NCBI GenBank assembly: GCA_023955635.1 | Contig: JAMXHR010000002.1 | Coordinates: 248,001-312,000 of the forward strand | DNA length: 64,000 nucleotides | Reading direction: 5' to 3' | Source of the DNA: Methanosarcina sp. ERenArc_MAG2 | GTDB taxonomy: Archaea > Halobacteriota > Methanosarcinia > Methanosarcinales > Methanosarcinaceae | Shown here: piece after piece, positions 6,930-54,282 of the stretch | Layout of the letters: each line of letters opens with the position of its first letter | How positions within the stretch are numbered: the stretch's first letter is position 1 | Translations under genes and position numbers: made by a program | The notes under the pieces: generated by a model | What the model was told of the DNA's origin: nothing | Database searches by the model: none | What the model saw: only the letters and a program-made list of their open reading frames with translations

Positions 6930-7844
6930 GGAAATTCTCCGGAATTATTAACCTGAACCAATTATAAACTTTGAATTATTACTGTTGATCTATTATTACT
7001 ATTGATCTATTTTAATTGTCGATCTTTTTTAAATGTCAATATATATTATCTGTTTAATTAAACGTCGCTTGAATAAAGAAAATTAGCACTGATGCTTTTG
7101 ATTCAATAATCTGTTATTTGTGGCCATAGTCGTACAGACCTTAAATAGCCGTTGTTAATATGAGACCGAATGTTATCATTCCGTATCTGGCATTCTGGGC
7201 CAATTAACTCGTTCTATTGAGCTTCAGTATTTCATATGATATAAAAATATTATAGCGAGCTTATTACTGCTTCAAATCCGAGATATTTTAACGTTCCTTT
7301 TTCAAAAGACTTCTGTTTCGAAAGGACATATATTAATACACCAGAATTATATAAAAATGCATATGGAATTATAACTTGTCGGCATAAAGATTCTATGGCC
7401 AAAGGCGATGGATATTAATCACACAAACAATAATATCCGTCATATAGACAATAATGTCCTTTACATTATATTGTTCTCTATATCAATTTTCCCTGAGATG
7501 TCGGGTCTATGCTGGAATTGCATATATTACTGCCGAAAATATGGAGAATGCGTCAGAAGGATACCAAATTAGCTTTTAAAATCTCCAATCTAATTTGACA
7601 ATCGTTTCTTTAAAAATATTCCCCAAATTAATTCTTGTTCCCAACTTTATTTTGCATTTCAGTCAGCACCAGCAGTTGATATGCCCTGAAAACGGCAAAT
7701 TGTATACTATTTAATGTTGCCACCATCGAATAAAAAATAGGTGAAGACCAGAATTAGTAAAAAAAGCCATAAAAAATTGCAAAGGGAAGAGAAAAACCTT
7801 CCATTTGCGACGGATTTTTAAGGGGTCTCATGCTCTTTTCATGT
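6930..7844. other. Long intergenic gap, no gene seen
   Basis: About 900 bp of A+T-rich DNA between two minus-strand genes. No open frame with a ribosome site or recognisable protein similarity was found, and no strong hairpin. The part just above 6929 would hold the protease promoter. Confidence 0.4.
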
Positions 7845-8522
7845 TTAGCTGAATAGAGATTTTAAAGCACTGACTAATTTTCCAAAGAAACCGGATTCAT
7901 CTGCCGTTTCTTTACCGTTTTCGTCCGTAAGATTACCTTTATCCTCCATACCTTCAGGGCCCTTTCCTGGCATCCCACTGCCTTCCATTGTTGTATTTCC
8001 ATCTTTTGGCGGCTGACTCCTGTTAGTCGTCATTTCAGGACGCCTCTCGGAATCATTCTCAAAACCCTGGGAGAGGTTTTCAGTTCCGTTCTGCATCCCT
8101 GGCCCGGGACCCATACTTCTGTTCTGCATCCCTGATCCGGGACCCATATTCTGAGGAAGAATGATCTTTATATCATCGGGAGCTGCGGCAAGCGATGCAT
8201 CAAGTTCCTGCTTAATCTGAAGAAGGTCATCTTCGGTTTCGGCACTGGAGATCTTTTCCTTTATTGCCTTGAGACTGGTTGTGAGTTGTTCAGCTGCTTC
8301 AAGGGATGATTCATTTGTAAGATTTTCTTTTGAATTCTCCAGAGTTTCTATAGTATTGTTTAGTGATTCGGTCATTCGAGTCTTCATTTGATCAACTGAG
8401 TCTCCAGAACCAGGTGAAGGAGGAACATTTAGATCCTCGGCAAGCGCGAAAGAGGGGATTATACTAAATAAGGTTAATAAAGTAATTAAAATGGGAATTA
8501 TTTTTTTAGTGAAAACTTCCAT
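7845..8522 (-). CDS. Secreted hypothetical protein, coiled coil plus Met-Gly-Pro-rich tail
   Basis: About 225 residues from the ATG giving MEVFTKKIIPILITLL, which has AAAGGTGA eight bases upstream; a start further up is less likely. Residues 1-28 form a signal peptide (ending SFALA). A helical stretch follows with several N-x-S/T glycosylation sequons, then two near repeats of MGPGPGMQNG/MGPGSGMQNR and a Gly/Pro/Glu-rich region. It shares composition and the helical TAA-LxxL pattern with the next minus-strand gene. No known family is recognised; it is probably a cell-surface or pseudoperiplasmic protein. Confidence 0.7.
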   Translation of the reverse strand: MEVFTKKIIPILITLLTLFSIIPSFALAEDLNVPPSPGSGDSVDQMKTRMTESLNNTIETLENSKENLTNESSLEAAEQLTTSLKAIKEKISSAETEDDLLQIKQELDASLAAAPDDIKIILPQNMGPGSGMQNRSMGPGPGMQNGTENLSQGFENDSERRPEMTTNRSQPPKDGNTTMEGSGMPGKGPEGMEDKGNLTDENGKETADESGFFGKLVSALKSLFS

Positions 8523-8710
8523 AAATTTCACCTTTGAAATACACAATCATATATAGGGTTTTTCAGACGTAGGGTTTGATCAGGAACTGATCTCAAATAT
8601 ATCTGGGAAAGAAATGGGAAGAATCATCTTAATATCATCTCCTTTCTACTCCCCATCTCCTTTTCATGGCATCCAAAGCTGTAAAGATTAAACTTCAAAG
8701 CTGTCAAAGA

Positions 8711-9640
8711 TTAAGCTTCAGTACTGTTGTCAGTACTGTTATCCTGCATTTTGCCAGGGCGATCAAAAAGGCAGTTACATCCTCCATGCTCGCCATGAGA
8801 CCTCGGACCTTCGCCAGCATCCATTCCAGGCGCTCCCTGGGAAGAGAACATGATCTCCTTGAGATCTTCAAGGGACTCAGCTCCGTTGACATTTTCTATC
8901 AGGGAAGTGAGTTCTGTGATCCTGCTGCTGAGCTCATCGCTTGTGTTCTCGCTCTCACTTACTTTAGTCTGAAGGTGTTCGACTTCCCTTTCGAGTGAAT
9001 CAACAGCCTCGCTCTTCATATAGGTGAATACTACTTCCTGCAGTTCCGCTGCAGTCGAAGCCTCACTCACGTTAGTGGATAAATTTTGAAGGTCAGCGAT
9101 TCTTTCACCGAGTTCTTCAGTCCTGTTATCATCTCCGGCTTCCGTAAGATTGGTCTGTTCAGTTTCCAGCCTTTGAGTCATATTTCCAAGGGATTCAACG
9201 ATTTCCGTCTGAACATCAGTGAAATTGTCATCAGTAACGTTCTCAACCCTGTCGAGGCCGAATAATCCAGGCATTCTGCCGGGTTCCATGTGCATTTCTC
9301 CAGGGCCCCCGTTCATTCCATCAGGTCCCATACATTTATTTGTCGGCCTCTGACTGGACAAAACTTCCTGAAGATCGGATGCACTGGATGCTTCGCTTAC
9401 ATTGGTATAGAAGCTTTGAAGCTCGGTAATTTTTTTACTAACCGAGTCAAGGATGTTTGCCTGAACATCCGTGAAATTTTCGTCAGTTATATTCCCCGCC
9501 GGACCAGATCTTAGATCATAACTCTGATCAGCCGAATTTGTTTGAGCTCCGTTTCCTGAAGCAAAAGCTCCTGGGATGATACTCAATACAATCAACACCA
9601 TCGCAAAACGGGAAATTAATTTTAATGTTTTTATTGTCAT
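8711..9640 (-). CDS. Secreted protein with three helical repeats and many N-glycosylation sequons
   Basis: 309 residues, start ATG preceded by GGAGGT, a strong ribosome site. Residues 1-27 are a signal peptide. Three related units follow: two begin N-(I/V)-T-D-(E/D)-N-F-T-D-V-Q and all carry a helical segment ending NVSEAS...LQEV or ENVNGAE...LKEI. Between units one and two sits a Met/Gly/Pro-rich hinge with GPDGMNGGPGEMHMEPGRMP. At least ten N-x-S/T sites are present. No family recognised. The promoter region resembles that of the tryptophan-heptad gene upstream (see repeat at 9680), so the two may be expressed together. Confidence 0.75.
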   Translation of the reverse strand: MTIKTLKLISRFAMVLIVLSIIPGAFASGNGAQTNSADQSYDLRSGPAGNITDENFTDVQANILDSVSKKITELQSFYTNVSEASSASDLQEVLSSQRPTNKCMGPDGMNGGPGEMHMEPGRMPGLFGLDRVENVTDDNFTDVQTEIVESLGNMTQRLETEQTNLTEAGDDNRTEELGERIADLQNLSTNVSEASTAAELQEVVFTYMKSEAVDSLEREVEHLQTKVSESENTSDELSSRITELTSLIENVNGAESLEDLKEIMFSSQGAPGMDAGEGPRSHGEHGGCNCLFDRPGKMQDNSTDNSTEA

Positions 9641-9679
9641 AACGTACCTCCGTTAATTACCGTATTTTCTTTTTTTCAT

Positions 9680-9790
9680 GTGTCTCGGCTGTTCGCCTGT
9701 TGACAGTCCTAAAATTAACTGGCTTAAATATAAGCATACTTTCAGAAATAAGGATATTAAAGAAATTAAATTTAATAAATAAGCTTTTTT
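9680..9790. repeat. Upstream-region repeat, copy 1
   Basis: CGGCTGTTCGCCTGTTGACA and the following ACTGGCTTAAATATAA, then TTTCAGAAATAAGGATATTA, recur with few changes at about 10826-10935. Both copies lie upstream of minus-strand secreted-protein genes (start 9640 and start 10529), so they are candidates for a shared promoter or leader. Confidence 0.55.
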
Positions 9791-9889
9791 GGACTTTAAA
9801 TTCCATAACAAACCTTAAAGGGCCTCTTTAATACTTATTCGGACCCTTAAACTCCGTATATTTGAGCAAAAAAAATGTATTCATTTGTT

Positions 9890-10000
9890 AGAACTTGCGC
9901 AGTTGAACTGAAAAAAGTAACATGAAACTTCAAATAGTCTAATTCACGATATTTATGATAGACCTTTATGCTTTATTTTGCTTCTCAACTGCGTAAGTCT
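9890..10000. mobile_element. MITE-like element, copy A
   Basis: About 111 bp with no coding capacity. The left end AGAACTTGCGCAGTTGA and the reverse complement of the right end AGACTTACGCAGTTGA form a terminal inverted repeat. Internal stretches CTGAAAAAAGTAACATGAAA and GCTTTATTTTGCTT are found again, inverted, in copy B at 10695-10807. Short length, inverted ends and multiple copies fit a miniature inverted-repeat element moved by a transposase elsewhere in the genome. Confidence 0.65.
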
Positions 10001-10115
10001 AATCAAAAAAGACCCTTTAACACAATTGGTTAAGGATCTTACTGCTTTTGGAATCCAATAAGAGATTGGAGGAATCAGTCGTAATCAGTTTTTTACAGCC
10101 AGTTTTCACCGTCTG

Positions 10116-10529
10116 TTATCTTTTATTATAATTGTTTTCCCATTTCTTATGGTTATTTTCCCATTTTTTATGGTTGTTTTCCCATTTCTTATGGTTGTTT
10201 TTCCATTTCTTGTAGTTGCTTTCCCATTTCTTATAATTGCTTTCCCATTTTCTGTAATCTTCTCCATGTTTCTTATTGTCCCATTTCTTTTTCTCGTTAT
10301 CCCATTTCCTCTGTTCGTTATCCCAATTTCTCTGTTCGTTATCCCAATTTCTCTGTTCGTTATTCCAGTTTCTCTGTTCGTTATCCCACTTCTTCTTCTC
10401 GTCGCTCCATTGCTTTTCATTCTTTTGCGGAGCTGCGTTTACTGACGCAGCTGTCACTGACATTACAAAAAAGACTAACATCAAAAGGCACAGTATCTTT
10501 TTTATTCTGCCAAATATTTGCTTTCTCAT
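10116..10529 (-). CDS. Secreted tryptophan-heptad repeat protein
   Basis: About 137 residues from ATG at 10529, with AAGGAG eight bases upstream. Residues 1-32 are a signal peptide (ends NAA). The rest is almost entirely a seven-residue repeat with tryptophan at one fixed position: units such as WDNEQRN in the first half and WENNHKK in the second, thirteen tryptophans in all, spaced seven apart except for one gap with HGEDY. The DNA shows the matching 21-bp repeats. The protein is highly charged and hydrophilic otherwise. No family is recognised; a long amphipathic helix or fibre on the cell surface is inference. Confidence 0.75.
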   Translation of the reverse strand: MRKQIFGRIKKILCLLMLVFFVMSVTAASVNAAPQKNEKQWSDEKKKWDNEQRNWNNEQRNWDNEQRNWDNEQRKWDNEKKKWDNKKHGEDYRKWESNYKKWESNYKKWKNNHKKWENNHKKWENNHKKWENNYNKR

Positions 10530-10694
10530 TATGCCCACTCCTTAATTTGTCTAATTTGATGTAATTTTAAACGGTCTATTTTTCAATTCACTCCCCACTG
10601 CAGATATGCTACGGAAAGAGATTATACCAGATTATGCCAATTAATCGCCCAGATCAATTTCGGTATGACTATTGGCAATTTTTTATGTATTTAT

Positions 10695-10807
10695 AGGACT
10701 TACACACTTGATAAGCAAAATAAAGCACAAGTGAGTTGCTGCAAATAGGAGAATTTAAACATTTTAAAGTCTCATGCTACTTTTTTCAGTTCAACTGAGT
10801 AAGTCCT
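10695..10807. mobile_element. MITE-like element, copy B
   Basis: 113 bp, inverted relative to copy A. Left end AGGACTTACACACTTGATAA and reverse-complemented right end AGGACTTACTCAGTTGAACT. It lies between the tryptophan-heptad gene and the repeat at 10826, and so may have pushed an upstream region away from that gene. Confidence 0.65.
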
Positions 10808-10825
10808 TCTTTCTTCTAATTGTCT

Positions 10826-10935
10826 TATCGGCTATTCGCCGGTTGACAATTCTGAAATATACTGGCTTAAATATAAAATTACTTGCAGAAATAAAGATAT
10901 TATTAAGGCTTAATTTTAAAAAAGAAGCCTATTTA
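10826..10935. repeat. Upstream-region repeat, copy 2
   Basis: CGGCTATTCGCCGGTTGACA followed by ACTGGCTTAAATATAA and GCAGAAATAAAGATATTA match the copy at 9680. The remaining sequence up to 11410 is A+T rich without a gene. Confidence 0.55.
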
Positions 10936-11416
10936 AACCTTAAATTTCAGAAGAAACCTTAAATCATATAATTAATACTTAATGGGCTCGTTAAACATCG
11001 TATCCCTTAACAAAAGAGATATAAGGATTTTTTATCATGGAAAATTCAGCTGGAGTTTATTATAAATCCATTAAAGGCTTTTAAAGGGAAACGAACTCCT
11101 TATATGGAAAAAATAAGATTCGTAAAGGATTAAATCCAAAAATAGCTTCTTTTAAAGCGTAAATTAGAAATTTAATCCTATAATAGAACTGAAAAAGTAA
11201 GTATGCTTTTATCTTTAAATCCAGATATAGCATCTCCAGTCAGGAACACATCGAGCAGTACCATCCACCCCAAAAAATCCGAAAATATGCTATGATAGTA
11301 CACAGCTGTGTACGTGCATGTAGAAACGGTTAACACGTCGAGGAAACCATATGTAGAATAAGCCTGCAAGATCCGCTCGGTGTATTCCTGACTGACCTTT
11401 CAGCTCTTAAAAAAAC

Positions 11417-11426
11417 TTTATATAAG
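11417..11426 (+). promoter_or_regulatory. TATA box of the HTH gene
   Basis: TTTATATAAG preceded by an A-rich BRE-like AAAAAAAC lies 28 bases before the ATG at 11454, the layout of an archaeal promoter with a very short leader. Confidence 0.6.
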
Positions 11427-11453
11427 TATTTAGAAAATGTAACAGGGATAAAA

Positions 11454-11846
11454 ATGCCTGATAACCCGGAGGAAAAATTGCTGATTCTGCAGCTTTCCGA
11501 AGATTCCAGAAAAATTGCCCGGCTTCTTTCAAATGAGACCTCAATCAAAATCCTTAAATTGCTTAATAAGAAGTCGATGTCGGCAGGAGACCTTGCAGAT
11601 GAGCTTGAAGTGCGCCTGAACACTCTTAAATATAATCTGGATTCGCTCCTTGAAGCCGGAATGATCAGAGTAAGGCACATAAAATGGAGCAGGAAAGGAA
11701 GGGAAATAAAGGTTTATGAGGCAGTGGAAAAAGTAATCGTCCTTCTGCCTGTAAAAAAGAACCCGGAAACTTCTTTTATGTTAATGAAGTTATGGCAAAT
11801 CATCTCCGAAAGTTTAGAGGGACAGAAAATTCCCGAATTGTCATGA
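11454..11846 (+). CDS. ArsR-like winged-helix transcription regulator
   Basis: 130 residues, start ATG after CAGGGAT. The segment from about residue 22 to 75 (SNETSIKILKLL, SAGDLADELEVRLNTLKYNLDSLLEAGMI) is a typical ArsR/HTH_20 helix-turn-helix, followed by the wing HIKWSRKGREIKVYE. No cysteine metal site is visible, so it is not an obvious metal sensor. It precedes a lipoprotein gene and a membrane-tethered winged-helix gene on the same strand and may control them; that is inferred from position only. Confidence 0.85.
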   Translation: MPDNPEEKLLILQLSEDSRKIARLLSNETSIKILKLLNKKSMSAGDLADELEVRLNTLKYNLDSLLEAGMIRVRHIKWSRKGREIKVYEAVEKVIVLLPVKKNPETSFMLMKLWQIISESLEGQKIPELS

Positions 11847-11990
11847 AATTTATTATAAGCCTCCCACTTTTATGCGGTGATTATATCCTTTTCAAGAGAA
11901 ATTTCAAAATATAACCAAATATTAAAATATATGAATCAAGAGAACAAGTACAGTCCAGCGTTAAGTTCTTTCAACAGGACGTGGCCCAGT

Positions 11991-13079
11991 ATGAAAATCA
12001 AATTTCTGTCCGTGCTCCTTATATTTGCAGGAATTATCCTGATCTCAGGCTGTGTTGATAGGGAAAACCAGCCTCTTACTTATAAAGCTCCAGGAGATCT
12101 GTACAGGAGTATATTTTATCCTTATATGGGTCATGGAGGCCCTGGGATACCAGGTGTGCATCCTCACGATCCGTTTTACAAAGGGCATCGTTTAGACTCT
12201 GAGTCCATCGAGACTCTGAGGGATGCAACATCCCTTCTCGACAGCAATATAGAGAAGGCAGAAATTATTTCCACGCGGCTTGAAGAAGGAATTAAGCGTT
12301 TCAAAGCCGAGGGTGAGGATGTTAGCAGACTTGAAGCCTTACTTGGGGAATATAACCGCCTTTTAGAGGAAGCCAAAGAATACAGAGCCCTTGCAGCTGC
12401 CGACAAAGGAAACAACAGCTCAACCACAGATTCAGAAAACGATTTATCCGAAAGTGATGAAAGAGAAAATTTGATCAGGTCTCAGAAGAGTATGATTCAA
12501 GCGAATCATGTCCTGAAAGAGATTTTCGAGGAATTAAGGTACATGATGCGTGGGAGCGAAGAGCTCAACAACACATCCCGACTCACTGCAACAGGAGACG
12601 GAAAAGCTCTTCTTGCAGGCAGTTTTGACCTGAGCATTCACCTGGAAAATGGATTGATGGCAATACCGGAGATATCTCCCGATTCCGAAATAGATATAAA
12701 AGGGAATTATACGTTTGAAGAAAAAACCGGTATGCAGGATAAGGTACTCGTGTATAATATACAGTCTGCTGACGTGAACATCTCCGATTCTTTTAAGGCA
12801 ATAATGCTTAGCGGCACAAACATTACCCTTACTGCATCTGGAGAAGGATATTCGACTTTCATGGGAAACGGCACATACAGAGTTGAGGATGCAGGCAAAT
12901 TAATAAAAGAGGAAAAATGGGGGATCCCTTTCTTTGAAGAAGAAGAAAATCCCGATGAATTCGGACCTGATGAAGAAGATCATGACACAATAACCGAGTA
13001 CAAAATAGAGAGTGATGTTGCCGAAGAGAACAGAGTTGGTCCGGAGGCATTTGAGACTTGCAGGAATCCAGGTGGATAA
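11991..13079 (+). CDS. Lipoprotein with coiled coil, C terminus altered by a small duplication
   Basis: About 362 residues from ATG at 11991, chosen because it begins the signal peptide MKIKFLSVLLIFAGIILISG followed by cysteine, a lipobox; earlier in-frame starts would bury it. After a Gly/Pro/His-rich stretch comes a helical region (about 70-200) and then a beta-rich domain with sequons NYT, NIS, NIT, NGT. The C terminus is acidic. The end EAFETCRNPGG and stop come from a 102-bp duplication: the sequence GTTGGTCCGGAGGCA recurs downstream and continues as EAWDKRSFIKENP and a stop, probably the ancestral end. No family known. Confidence 0.75.
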   Translation: MKIKFLSVLLIFAGIILISGCVDRENQPLTYKAPGDLYRSIFYPYMGHGGPGIPGVHPHDPFYKGHRLDSESIETLRDATSLLDSNIEKAEIISTRLEEGIKRFKAEGEDVSRLEALLGEYNRLLEEAKEYRALAAADKGNNSSTTDSENDLSESDERENLIRSQKSMIQANHVLKEIFEELRYMMRGSEELNNTSRLTATGDGKALLAGSFDLSIHLENGLMAIPEISPDSEIDIKGNYTFEEKTGMQDKVLVYNIQSADVNISDSFKAIMLSGTNITLTASGEGYSTFMGNGTYRVEDAGKLIKEEKWGIPFFEEEENPDEFGPDEEDHDTITEYKIESDVAEENRVGPEAFETCRNPGG

Positions 13080-13150
13080 CACAATATTGCAGGAATCCAG
13101 ATCTGAATAACAACAATATTGCCGAAGAAAACAGAGTTGGTCCGGAGGCA
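13019..13150 (+). repeat. 102-bp direct duplication at the lipoprotein 3' end
   Basis: The 30-bp stretch beginning GCCGAAGAGAACAGAGTTGG at 13019 recurs at 13121 with one change. Between them GCAGGAATCCAG occurs twice 31 bp apart, a nested smaller duplication that brings in-frame stop codons. Confidence 0.85.
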
Positions 13151-13262
13151 TGGGACAAAAGAAGCTTTATTAAAGAAAACCCATAGCCTTCAAGAAAAAA
13201 ATATAAGAACAAAAATTACCTGGAAGGATAACAAAATCCAAATTGCAACTCTGGATTTACTG

Positions 13263-14527
13263 ATGAAAATGAATCTGAGATTCTATATTATTTGCGTTGC
13301 TGCCGTACTCGCTTTAGTTGTACCTGCCGTAGCAAACAGCAACAACACCGCCACAATCCACGGAGAAGTATACGGCTGGGATACCTTCGAACCTCTTGAA
13401 AATGCAGTGGTTGATGTAAATTCCACGCCCTCTCAATCAATGGTGGCAAAATATGGCCTTTATTCCTTTAAACTGGCACCCGGAGATTATTCTATTACAG
13501 CCAGGTACTATCAGAACAGCACCCTTATCTATTCGGCAGAAGAAATTGTCCAGATTAAAGGTGAAGGAGATTACGTGCGCGATCTCCTGCTTCTTCCCGT
13601 TTATTCCGAAGAACTCATGGACGGCTCCGAAGTAAACGGTTCCTCTTCAAACTTGAATGAAAGTGCAGAAAACTCTTCTTCGAATAAGGTAAATCCGCTA
13701 ACAGAAACATCTATAGATGAGGTAAATAATTCCAATAACCTGAATCTCACCGGAGAAAACGGAGCTGATTCTTCAACTGTAAGTTATATGCTAATAGCCC
13801 TTACCTTTTTTATCCTGATTACAGGCGGCTACCAGCTTTCCAGAAAGCATAAAAAGATAGAGAAAACCCCGCCGAAAGAAAAAACAGAACATATCACAGG
13901 AAACTCTTCCAAACTAGAAAATACGCATGAGCTTTCTGTAAAAGTGCCGGATAAAAGCATTGAACCTGAAATTAGGTCGGATTTCCAGGCAAACACTGAA
14001 GAAACCATATCCTTAAAAGGGCCAGTAATAGAATCAGAACCCAAGCTCATAATAACAATTCCGGGAGCAGAACCAGAACCCAAGCTCATAATAACAAGTC
14101 CAGTAGAAGAACCAGAACCCAAAATCATAGTGACGGGAGCAGAACCAGAACCCAAAATCTCGGAAAGGAAAATACCGGCCGAAAGCAAAGAAGAATATCC
14201 GGTACTGGAAACAAAACTTACGGAATCGGGGCCAGAAGAAGAGGAAGAAGAAAATGAAATTATTTCCCTTGAAGAACCTGAAGATAGTCCCGAAATTGGA
14301 ACTCCTGCTCCCAAAAGAAGCTCCCGCTTCCCGCAGACCTCCAGGTGGTCATGGACATTATTAGAGGTCAGGGAGGTCGGATTACCCAGAAAGACCTCCG
14401 CAGTAAGTTGAAATATTCCGAAGGAAAAGTCAGTCTTATGCTTGCTGACCTTGAAAGGAGAGAACTTATTGAGAAGTTTAAGCGGGGGCGCGGGAATGTT
14501 GTGATCCTGAGAGATGAGGAGCGCTAA
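13263..14527 (+). CDS. Membrane-tethered regulator: signal, carboxypeptidase-regulatory-like domain, TM, winged helix
   Basis: About 421 residues when the break is repaired. Start ATG at 13263 (MKMNLRFY) gives a signal peptide. The outer domain (about 30-120: ATIHGEVYGWDTFEPLENAV, LAPGDYSITARYY) is like CarboxypepD_reg/CNA-B beta sandwiches. A Ser/Asn-rich stretch precedes one membrane helix (YMLIALTFFILITGG), then a cytoplasmic linker with four EPEPK repeats, then a C-terminal winged helix (LPADLQVVMDIIRGQGGRIT, KLKYSEGKVSLMLADLERR) of the DUF7343 type. The frames join if the A4 run at 14313-14316 has five bases. It looks like a one-component surface sensor; ligand unknown. Confidence 0.75.
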
Positions 14528-36716: not shown

Positions 36717-37008
36717 TTATAATATAAAATAAAAAGATGTTTTTTCTACGTAATTTCACTTTTATATAAACTAGTGTTAATATTATACTTCATATTTTAT
36801 AATTAAGCCCATCATTTGACTATTCCGGAAAATATTTTACCCAATATATTTTAATTAGCTTTAATATAAAATAAAAAGATGTTTTTTTACGTAATTTCAC
36901 TTTTATATAAACTAGTGTTAATATTATACTTCATATTTTATAATTAAGCCCGTCATTTGACTATTCCGGAAAATATTTTCCCCAATATATTTTAATTAGC
37001 TTTATATT
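36717..37008. repeat. 142-bp tandem duplication, two copies
   Basis: AATATAAAATAAAAAGATGT, CACTTTTATATAAACTAGTG, CCCATCATTTGACTATTCCG and CCAATATATTTTAATTAGCT occur twice, 142 bp apart, with only a few differences. Each copy holds a TATA-like TTTTATATAAA. The block lies upstream of the KaiC-like copy 2 (minus strand). Confidence 0.85.
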
Positions 37009-37242
37009 TCTCTTTATGAAATCCAATCTATCATATTTTTTTCATAATGTGTCTTTGCTAATTCTGTCCCACTTACTATATATTTTTATTTATCCCTCTG
37101 TTATCCTTACCTCATCTGAACATTTTGTATGGGATTTCCAGGATGATTTCCCCCAGTCCGGGTCTTTAACCTTGAATAGTTCTCTTTTCACCTTTTTTAC
37201 TCCGATATACCTTTTTTGTCCATTTCTGTTCTCTTCTCTCTT

Positions 37243-37357
37243 TTCTTCTGTTCTCTGCCCTCTTCTTCTGTTCTCTTCTCTCTTTTCTTTTCTTCTCTGC
37301 CCTCTTCTTCTGTTCTCTTCTCTCTTTTCTTTTCTTCTCTGCCCTCTTCTTCTCCTG
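37243..37357. repeat. 42-bp polypyrimidine tandem repeat
   Basis: Nearly pure C/T on the plus strand; TTCTCTGCCCTCTTCTTCTG recurs every 42 bp about three times. The open frame across it (Leu/Phe/Ser only) is considered an artefact of composition. Confidence 0.75.
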
Positions 37358-37445
37358 TCTTAATTTCTGTTCCTGTTTCTCCTCCTGTCTGAATTTTGAG
37401 AGAAACCTTTAATAAAGATAGATCCCATCAATAATGCTGCACTGC

Positions 37446-53655: not shown

Positions 53656-54010
53656 GTCAAATACCCCGCAGCTTTTTGCAGGGAGGGCAACTTCCCCGAG
53701 AACCGTTTATAATGCGATTTATCAATTCCGTTTTTTTGTTTGTTAACTTCTGCTCGAACTAAATCGTATCAGGGTTATTGTTTCCTTTTAGAATCTGAAG
53801 CTGCGATGCGAACATACCCGTTGTTTGCAGCGGGGTGGGCCAGCGCAAATCTGATTTTCAAAAAAATACTGTGGAATATAGGATATTCAATTCTAAACTC
53901 TCTTTTGCGGTAGACATGATCAGGAAAATATATCAAGTCAAATTAATATATTTAAATGATATATTTCTTTATGGGAAAGGGGAACAAACCAATGAATAAC
54001 TTCCCGGTAA

Positions 54011-54090
54011 ACATTCATCGGGAAAAACATTCACCGGGAAAAACATTCATCGGTAAAAACATTCATCGGGAAAATATTCACCGGGAAAAA
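54011..54090. repeat. 16-bp tandem repeats upstream of the ATPase operon
   Basis: ACATTCATCGGGAAAA is repeated five times with small changes (CACC for CATC, GGT for GGG). The stretch TTCCCGG at 54001 and CCGGGAA inside units allow hairpins. It lies 190 bp before atpD. The rest of 53656-54282 shows no gene. Confidence 0.75.
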
Positions 54091-54282
54091 CAGGGTTGAT
54101 AAGGCGATATAATACCCTAAGGTATTGCCTGAAAACCGACACCATTCTAGGTTCTCTTTATCATTTTCTGCACACTTTGTTTTTTGTGGCACTAAATCGA
54201 ATGTCAATTCTCTATACCCTTCACCCTCACAAGTTACGCCCCGGAAAAGGGTACTTCAAAAGTGAAAGGGTACGAGGAAAAC

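Follow-up and report, generated by a model that had tools for sequence, protein, structure and literature searches.

The S-layer tile proteins of the Methanosarcinales are large secreted envelope proteins that combine DUF1608 domains with an acidic tether and a membrane anchor; methanochondroitin is an anionic capsule polymer, and M. acetivorans has been reported without a detectable methanochondroitin capsule (PMC12369344). Cell-surface proteins of Methanosarcina also carry tandem repeats (RIVW and others), whose units, as given in an excerpt of PMC2447325, are of 42 aa and longer and for which that excerpt makes no mention of tryptophan or heptads. In a 64,000-nucleotide stretch of a Methanosarcina genome (hereafter the window), we analyzed a gene whose product is likewise secreted and repetitive but differs from both: the mature protein is basic, only 105 aa long and without anchor or Pfam domain (a Pfam search gave no DUF1608 match), and its repeats are Trp heptads.

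Gene, product and family of the Trp-heptad protein

The original prediction had placed at positions 10116-10529 a secreted, hydrophilic, Asn/Lys/Glu-rich protein with thirteen Trp, one every seven residues, encoded by 21-bp DNA repeats. The frame was found there on the minus strand, with the following start region and leader:

10116..10529, minus strand: CDS of the Trp-heptad protein, a predicted hairpin (ATG at 10529; 137 aa, stop codon counted in the span)
10538..10541, minus strand: Shine-Dalgarno GGAG, 8 nt 5' of the ATG, read from sequence
10434..10529, minus strand: signal peptide, residues 1-32, with positive start, hydrophobic core and AxA-type end, read from sequence

The mature chain, counted from A33, has its 13 Trp at positions 9, 16, 23, 30, 37, 44, 51 and 63, 70, 77, 84, 91, 98 (mature numbering). 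The heptad rhythm holds with a single register break, since 11 of the 12 steps between neighboring Trp are exactly 7 and the exception, W51-W63, spans 12 residues; the 11 Trp pairs at distance 7 compare with a maximum of 6 in 20,000 shuffles of the identical residues. The hydrophilic character is borne out by the composition (K 24, N 22, E 13, with Trp 13, Tyr 4 and His 4), in which Leu, Ile, Val, Met, Phe, Cys and Thr are entirely absent, leaving Trp and Tyr as the only strongly hydrophobic residues. The 21-bp repeats form two arrays, 10122-10250 and 10279-10393, with 87% matches in each. Open frames overlap at this locus on both strands, a by-product of the 21-bp period, and cross-species conservation falls on the minus-strand frame. 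Other repeats were seen elsewhere in the window, namely a tandem duplication of 141 bp (97%) that precedes a 42-bp C/T-rich repeat array at 36720-37381, and about five copies of a 16-bp repeat (AAACATTCATCGGGAA) at 54009-54092.

Comparison with six syntenic orthologues gave dN/dS values of 0.04-0.22 for the window gene (one dS being saturated), and identity at Trp sites was 98.5% versus 56% at the remaining mature sites, which argues that the frame is translated and that the Trp are what selection holds. From these alignments, the gene is real and under selection; frame loss in relatives, which the original prediction had named as evidence against itself, was not found, the frame being under purifying selection. 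The number of heptads differs between species, with 7+6 in the window gene and 6+5 in the syntenic orthologues (one extra per arm; L043, whose C-terminal end has diverged, is excepted from this count), as would be expected from 21-bp repeats. The anticipated variation in unit number was thus observed between species, the level covered by this comparison, whereas it had been proposed for strains.

The gene belongs to a family with members carrying both arms in 23 of the 31 Methanosarcina genomes (counted by hand from the family search results), at 1 to 6 copies each, and several more full-length members occur in the window's own genome; homologues therefore extend across the genus and far beyond the strain. 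Searches of the wider class and phylum returned scattered weak matches only, none of them clear outside Methanosarcina, and all named records in a separate sequence collection were from Methanosarcina. Searches of Pfam, NCBIfam and PDB sequences with the window protein gave no match above cut-off, the scattered best matches being sub-threshold or compositional, and a literature search found no account of the family. The family is thus restricted to Methanosarcina, multi-copy and absent from the family databases searched. A viral origin was considered and dropped because viral contigs held no relatives. Copy number showed no link with the Type I/II (Rnf) class of Methanosarcina.

Family members follow a fixed plan, in which the leader type seen in the window protein is followed by arm 1 (Trp every seven residues; typical unit WDNDKRK), a turn KKHGxxYxxW and arm 2 (W-x3-Y-x2-W). 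All 29 members measured were basic, with net charge +4 to +20 and pI 9.2-10.0. Two variants of the plan were noted: the member at L067 9982-10587 (Methanosarcina sp. Ant1) carries a long GAGNV-type repeat after its leader and ahead of the hairpin, and the paralogues at L050 9804-10193 and L087 7321-7746 have Leu, Phe or Met in place of arm-1 Trp and retain the arm-2 Trp.

Predicted hairpin fold and aromatic register

Structure prediction with AlphaFold2, from 12 family sequences, yielded for the window protein two ordered helices of 46 residues each (6-51 and 58-103; mean pLDDT 91.2, pTM 0.70), so that the disorder envisaged by the original prediction as contrary evidence did not appear. For the paralogue L062 (39% identical), helices were predicted at 3-59 and 66-99 (pLDDT 82, pTM 0.60). 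Together with the register counts, the model divides the mature chain as follows:

10281..10418, minus strand: arm 1 helix, mature residues 6-51, Trp at d every seven, Lys/Gln/Arg at a (AlphaFold2 and register counts)
10263..10280, minus strand: turn DNKKHG, mature residues 52-57, with conserved K-K-H-G
10125..10262, minus strand: arm 2 helix, mature residues 58-103, Trp at d, Tyr/His at a (AlphaFold2 and register counts)

The 12-residue step between W51 and W63 coincides with the conserved K-K-H-G turn of the predicted hairpin. Across the family, aromatic residues fill 99% of d and 99% of a positions in arm 2, while in arm 1 Trp occupies d and the a positions are 86% charged, mainly K/R, plus Gln; this asymmetry between the arms is seen independently of the structure model. 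In paralogues, Leu, Phe, Met or Tyr takes the place of Trp without disturbing the register, as fits a core position. With the loop centered at residue 54.5, each arm-1 Trp would lie between a Trp and a Tyr/His of arm 2. The best Foldseek neighbors of the model were antiparallel hairpins (p85 iSH2, TM 0.73 by query), none significant by E-value.

Some observations count against the hairpin. AlphaFold2 readily predicts long helices for K/E-rich repeats, and arm 1, with one hydrophobic residue per heptad, is weak for a classical coiled coil. Correlation of the arm lengths, tried as an independent test, was absent family-wide (Spearman -0.32 for length, 0.08 for heptad number), the window gene alone gaining one heptad in both arms, and this lack argues against strict pairing of the arms. 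On balance, the model and the register make it very probable that the mature protein folds as an antiparallel two-helix hairpin, in which the Trp stripe is most likely a buried internal seam rather than a displayed surface. The helix with Trp on one face that had been foreseen was thus recovered, whereas surface display along one continuous helix was not, given the conserved turn and the predicted fold-back.

Flanking elements and genomic neighborhood

The gene is bracketed by two short elements and lies among neighbors that recur at other loci:

10696..10807, minus strand: MITE-like element on the 5' side, in the gene's own orientation
9890..10003, plus strand: MITE-like element on the 3' side, in the orientation opposite to the gene
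8711..9640, minus strand: c8, secreted coiled-coil-like protein, conserved neighbor
10828..11034, minus strand: upstream region of about 200 bp, 74% identical to 9685-9890, which is upstream of the neighboring secreted gene c8
11454..11846, plus strand: c3, ArsR-type (HTH_20) winged-helix protein, conserved divergent neighbor
11931..13079, plus strand: c4, lipoprotein-like extracellular protein with an ISGC lipobox-like motif, conserved neighbor
13263..14411, plus strand: c1, extracellular carboxypeptidase-regulatory-like domain and one TM, with a DUF7343 winged helix in relatives

The two elements (112-114 nt) are mutual reverse complements, short and non-coding, with many dispersed intergenic copies and with terminal inverted repeats (paired 16-bp ends), for which reasons we regard them as MITE-like; the stretches read showed no transposase with such ends. 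An element on each side, in constant inverted arrangement, was found at 19 of the 24 family genes with MGK-type leader (the window gene and 18 others, at other loci and in other species), and about 25 genes with MKK-type leader carry no element at all; in this classification, eight MGK-type genes mislabeled by script were reassigned by eye and relatives sharing the leader alone were left out. The 3' copies at six orthologous loci are 76-84% identical to the window copy, with the linked genes at dS of about 0.4-1.05, which suggests that the elements are under constraint; they may act as mobile ends, as regulatory sites or in both ways. RNAalifold predicted no RNA fold for the elements. Their 16-bp ends showed 24 two-sided pairing changes against 11.7 in shuffles (0/500), a contrast in which pairing and relatedness are not separated. 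We considered an mRNA panhandle formed by the inverted elements and discarded it, as several orthologues lack the 5' copy or have only part of it.

The region of about 200 bp common to c8 and the window gene, with relatives in front of many further family genes, is judging by sequence probably a shared promoter and leader. An Rfam search over 7500-14500 of the window gave no match. The proteins at 7845-8546 and 8711-9640, adjacent and both secreted, contain Met/Gly/Pro-rich stretches (with MGPGPGMQN repeats in the former) and are possibly metal-binding.

Three settings recur among 21 family neighborhoods. The first (the window and L038-L043) places the ArsR-type protein, the lipoprotein-like protein and c1 divergently from the family gene, in most cases with c8 downstream; the second (L044, L046, L047, L050) adjoins a peptide/nickel-type ABC transporter and a methyltransferase; the third (L045, L051-L056) adjoins c1 and a secreted Gly-Tyr-repeat protein. 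This last protein represents another secreted family, characterized by GYNKGYKDG-type repeats, that lies next to MKK-type hairpin genes and c1 (e.g. L053 12082-12426). A c1 gene lies within 5 kb of 17 of the 31 family genes, compared with an expectation of <1% if a 4-Mb genome holds about three c1 genes, a figure that denotes conserved linkage at two settings and not 17 events, as orthologous neighborhoods are not independent. The c1 frame of the window is interrupted, with the winged helix running on in another frame to 14527, and relatives are intact; the interruption may be real or an assembly error.

Proposed envelope role and comparison with known systems

The signal peptide, the family, the selection on it and the register pattern are established at the level of sequence, and the account that best accommodates them, with about even chances of being correct as a whole, is that of a secreted, basic, aromatic-core hairpin of the envelope or matrix. 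After removal of the signal peptide, the mature chain would fold into an antiparallel α-helical hairpin with a solely aromatic core, arm-1 Trp (d) packing between arm-2 Trp (d) and Tyr/His (a), and with the arm-1 Lys/Arg/Gln at a probably lying over the rings in cation-π contacts. The exterior would be highly charged and net positive, and the hairpin may serve the Methanosarcina envelope as a structural protein or glue by binding acidic surface material, with methanochondroitin, S-layer glycans and the acidic S-layer tether as candidate partners. An envelope function, structural or binding, accords with a basic, secreted protein that is present in several copies and confined to one genus; we nonetheless propose the envelope-binding role tentatively. 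Genome G015, which we take to be M. acetivorans, holds a family member, and as this species is the one reported to lack the capsule, methanochondroitin would not be the sole partner and the S-layer or another polyanion should be considered. The membrane-bound one-component regulator c1 (DUF7343), adjoining in two of the three settings, may control the hairpin gene.

Hairpins may also bundle into larger assemblies, and in a stronger form of this proposal the monomer would be the building block of a Trp-zipper surface material, in which Trp seams hold the hairpins together as filaments or bundles (of four helices or more). In favor of it, the Trp rings along a seam between just two helices would presumably remain partly exposed, tandem paralogues occur, the L067 protein has its long GAGNV-type repeat before the hairpin, and weak profile matches were obtained to 2guv (E 0.12), which we take to be an aromatic-zipper variant of a lipoprotein, and to 7boa (E 0.25; a CC-Type2-(YaFd)4 design); neither match is significant, and we consider this form possible but unlikely. 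The stripe of the original prediction, in which the arms open as long helices whose Trp stack on sugars or aromatic compounds, draws on the regular Trp spacing and on the thick polysaccharide capsule that Methanosarcina makes (PMC12369344). The conserved turn that divides the stripe, the two helices and short turn given by AlphaFold2 for both proteins tried, and in-register Trp replacements by Leu, Phe or Met, which suit packing rather than sugar stacking, render it improbable.

That the gene is a low-complexity repeat without fixed role, kept by 21-bp turnover or as cargo of the MITE-like elements, could be read from the 21-bp arrays and from the inverted elements flanking most MGK-leader genes, but dN/dS of 0.04-0.22, 98.5% conservation of the Trp, conserved synteny and MKK-leader members sharing the plan yet devoid of elements make this very improbable. 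The M. barkeri conduit for extracellular electron transfer is listed as unknown and cytochrome-independent (PMC12369344), and a dense aromatic zigzag (13 Trp plus Tyr) is predicted along a hairpin of about 7 nm that is secreted, in several copies, by archaea exchanging electrons outside the cell. The array might then be a hopping path or its protein matrix, but Trp oxidation requires a high potential and we hold this to be the least probable of the readings considered. The basic aromatic-core hairpin of the envelope or matrix is the reading that we retain. With basic, secreted proteins encoded in several copies and found solely in a genus that has a distinctive anionic capsule and partly unexplained extracellular electron exchange, the family offers concrete candidates for envelope biology in genetically tractable methanogens, with the conserved inverted brackets and the linked DUF7343 regulator as further handles.

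Among known folds, p85 iSH2 and the occludin C-terminal domain, the best Foldseek neighbors, likewise pair two long antiparallel helices through a turn, but are eukaryotic, without sequence relation to the hairpin and not significant matches by E-value; their cores are ordinary aliphatic ones. The unbroken heptads of classical coiled coils are present (7 and 6 Trp heptads in two predicted 46-residue helices), whereas hydrophobic residues at both a and d occur in arm 2 and at d alone in arm 1. The designed Trp-zipper 1T8Z reportedly assembles from five separate chains and carries Trp at a as well as d. The hairpin has in common with this coiled coil (PDB 1T8Z, named in PMC4619341) helical heptads with Trp at core positions, a core role that we infer from the model and the replacements, but it is natural, predicted to be antiparallel and intramolecular, and it confines Trp to d in arm 1 while combining Trp with Tyr in arm 2. 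A hydrophobic core of Trp and Tyr alone would be an unusual folding solution for a natural protein, and the closest parallel that we met is this designed peptide.
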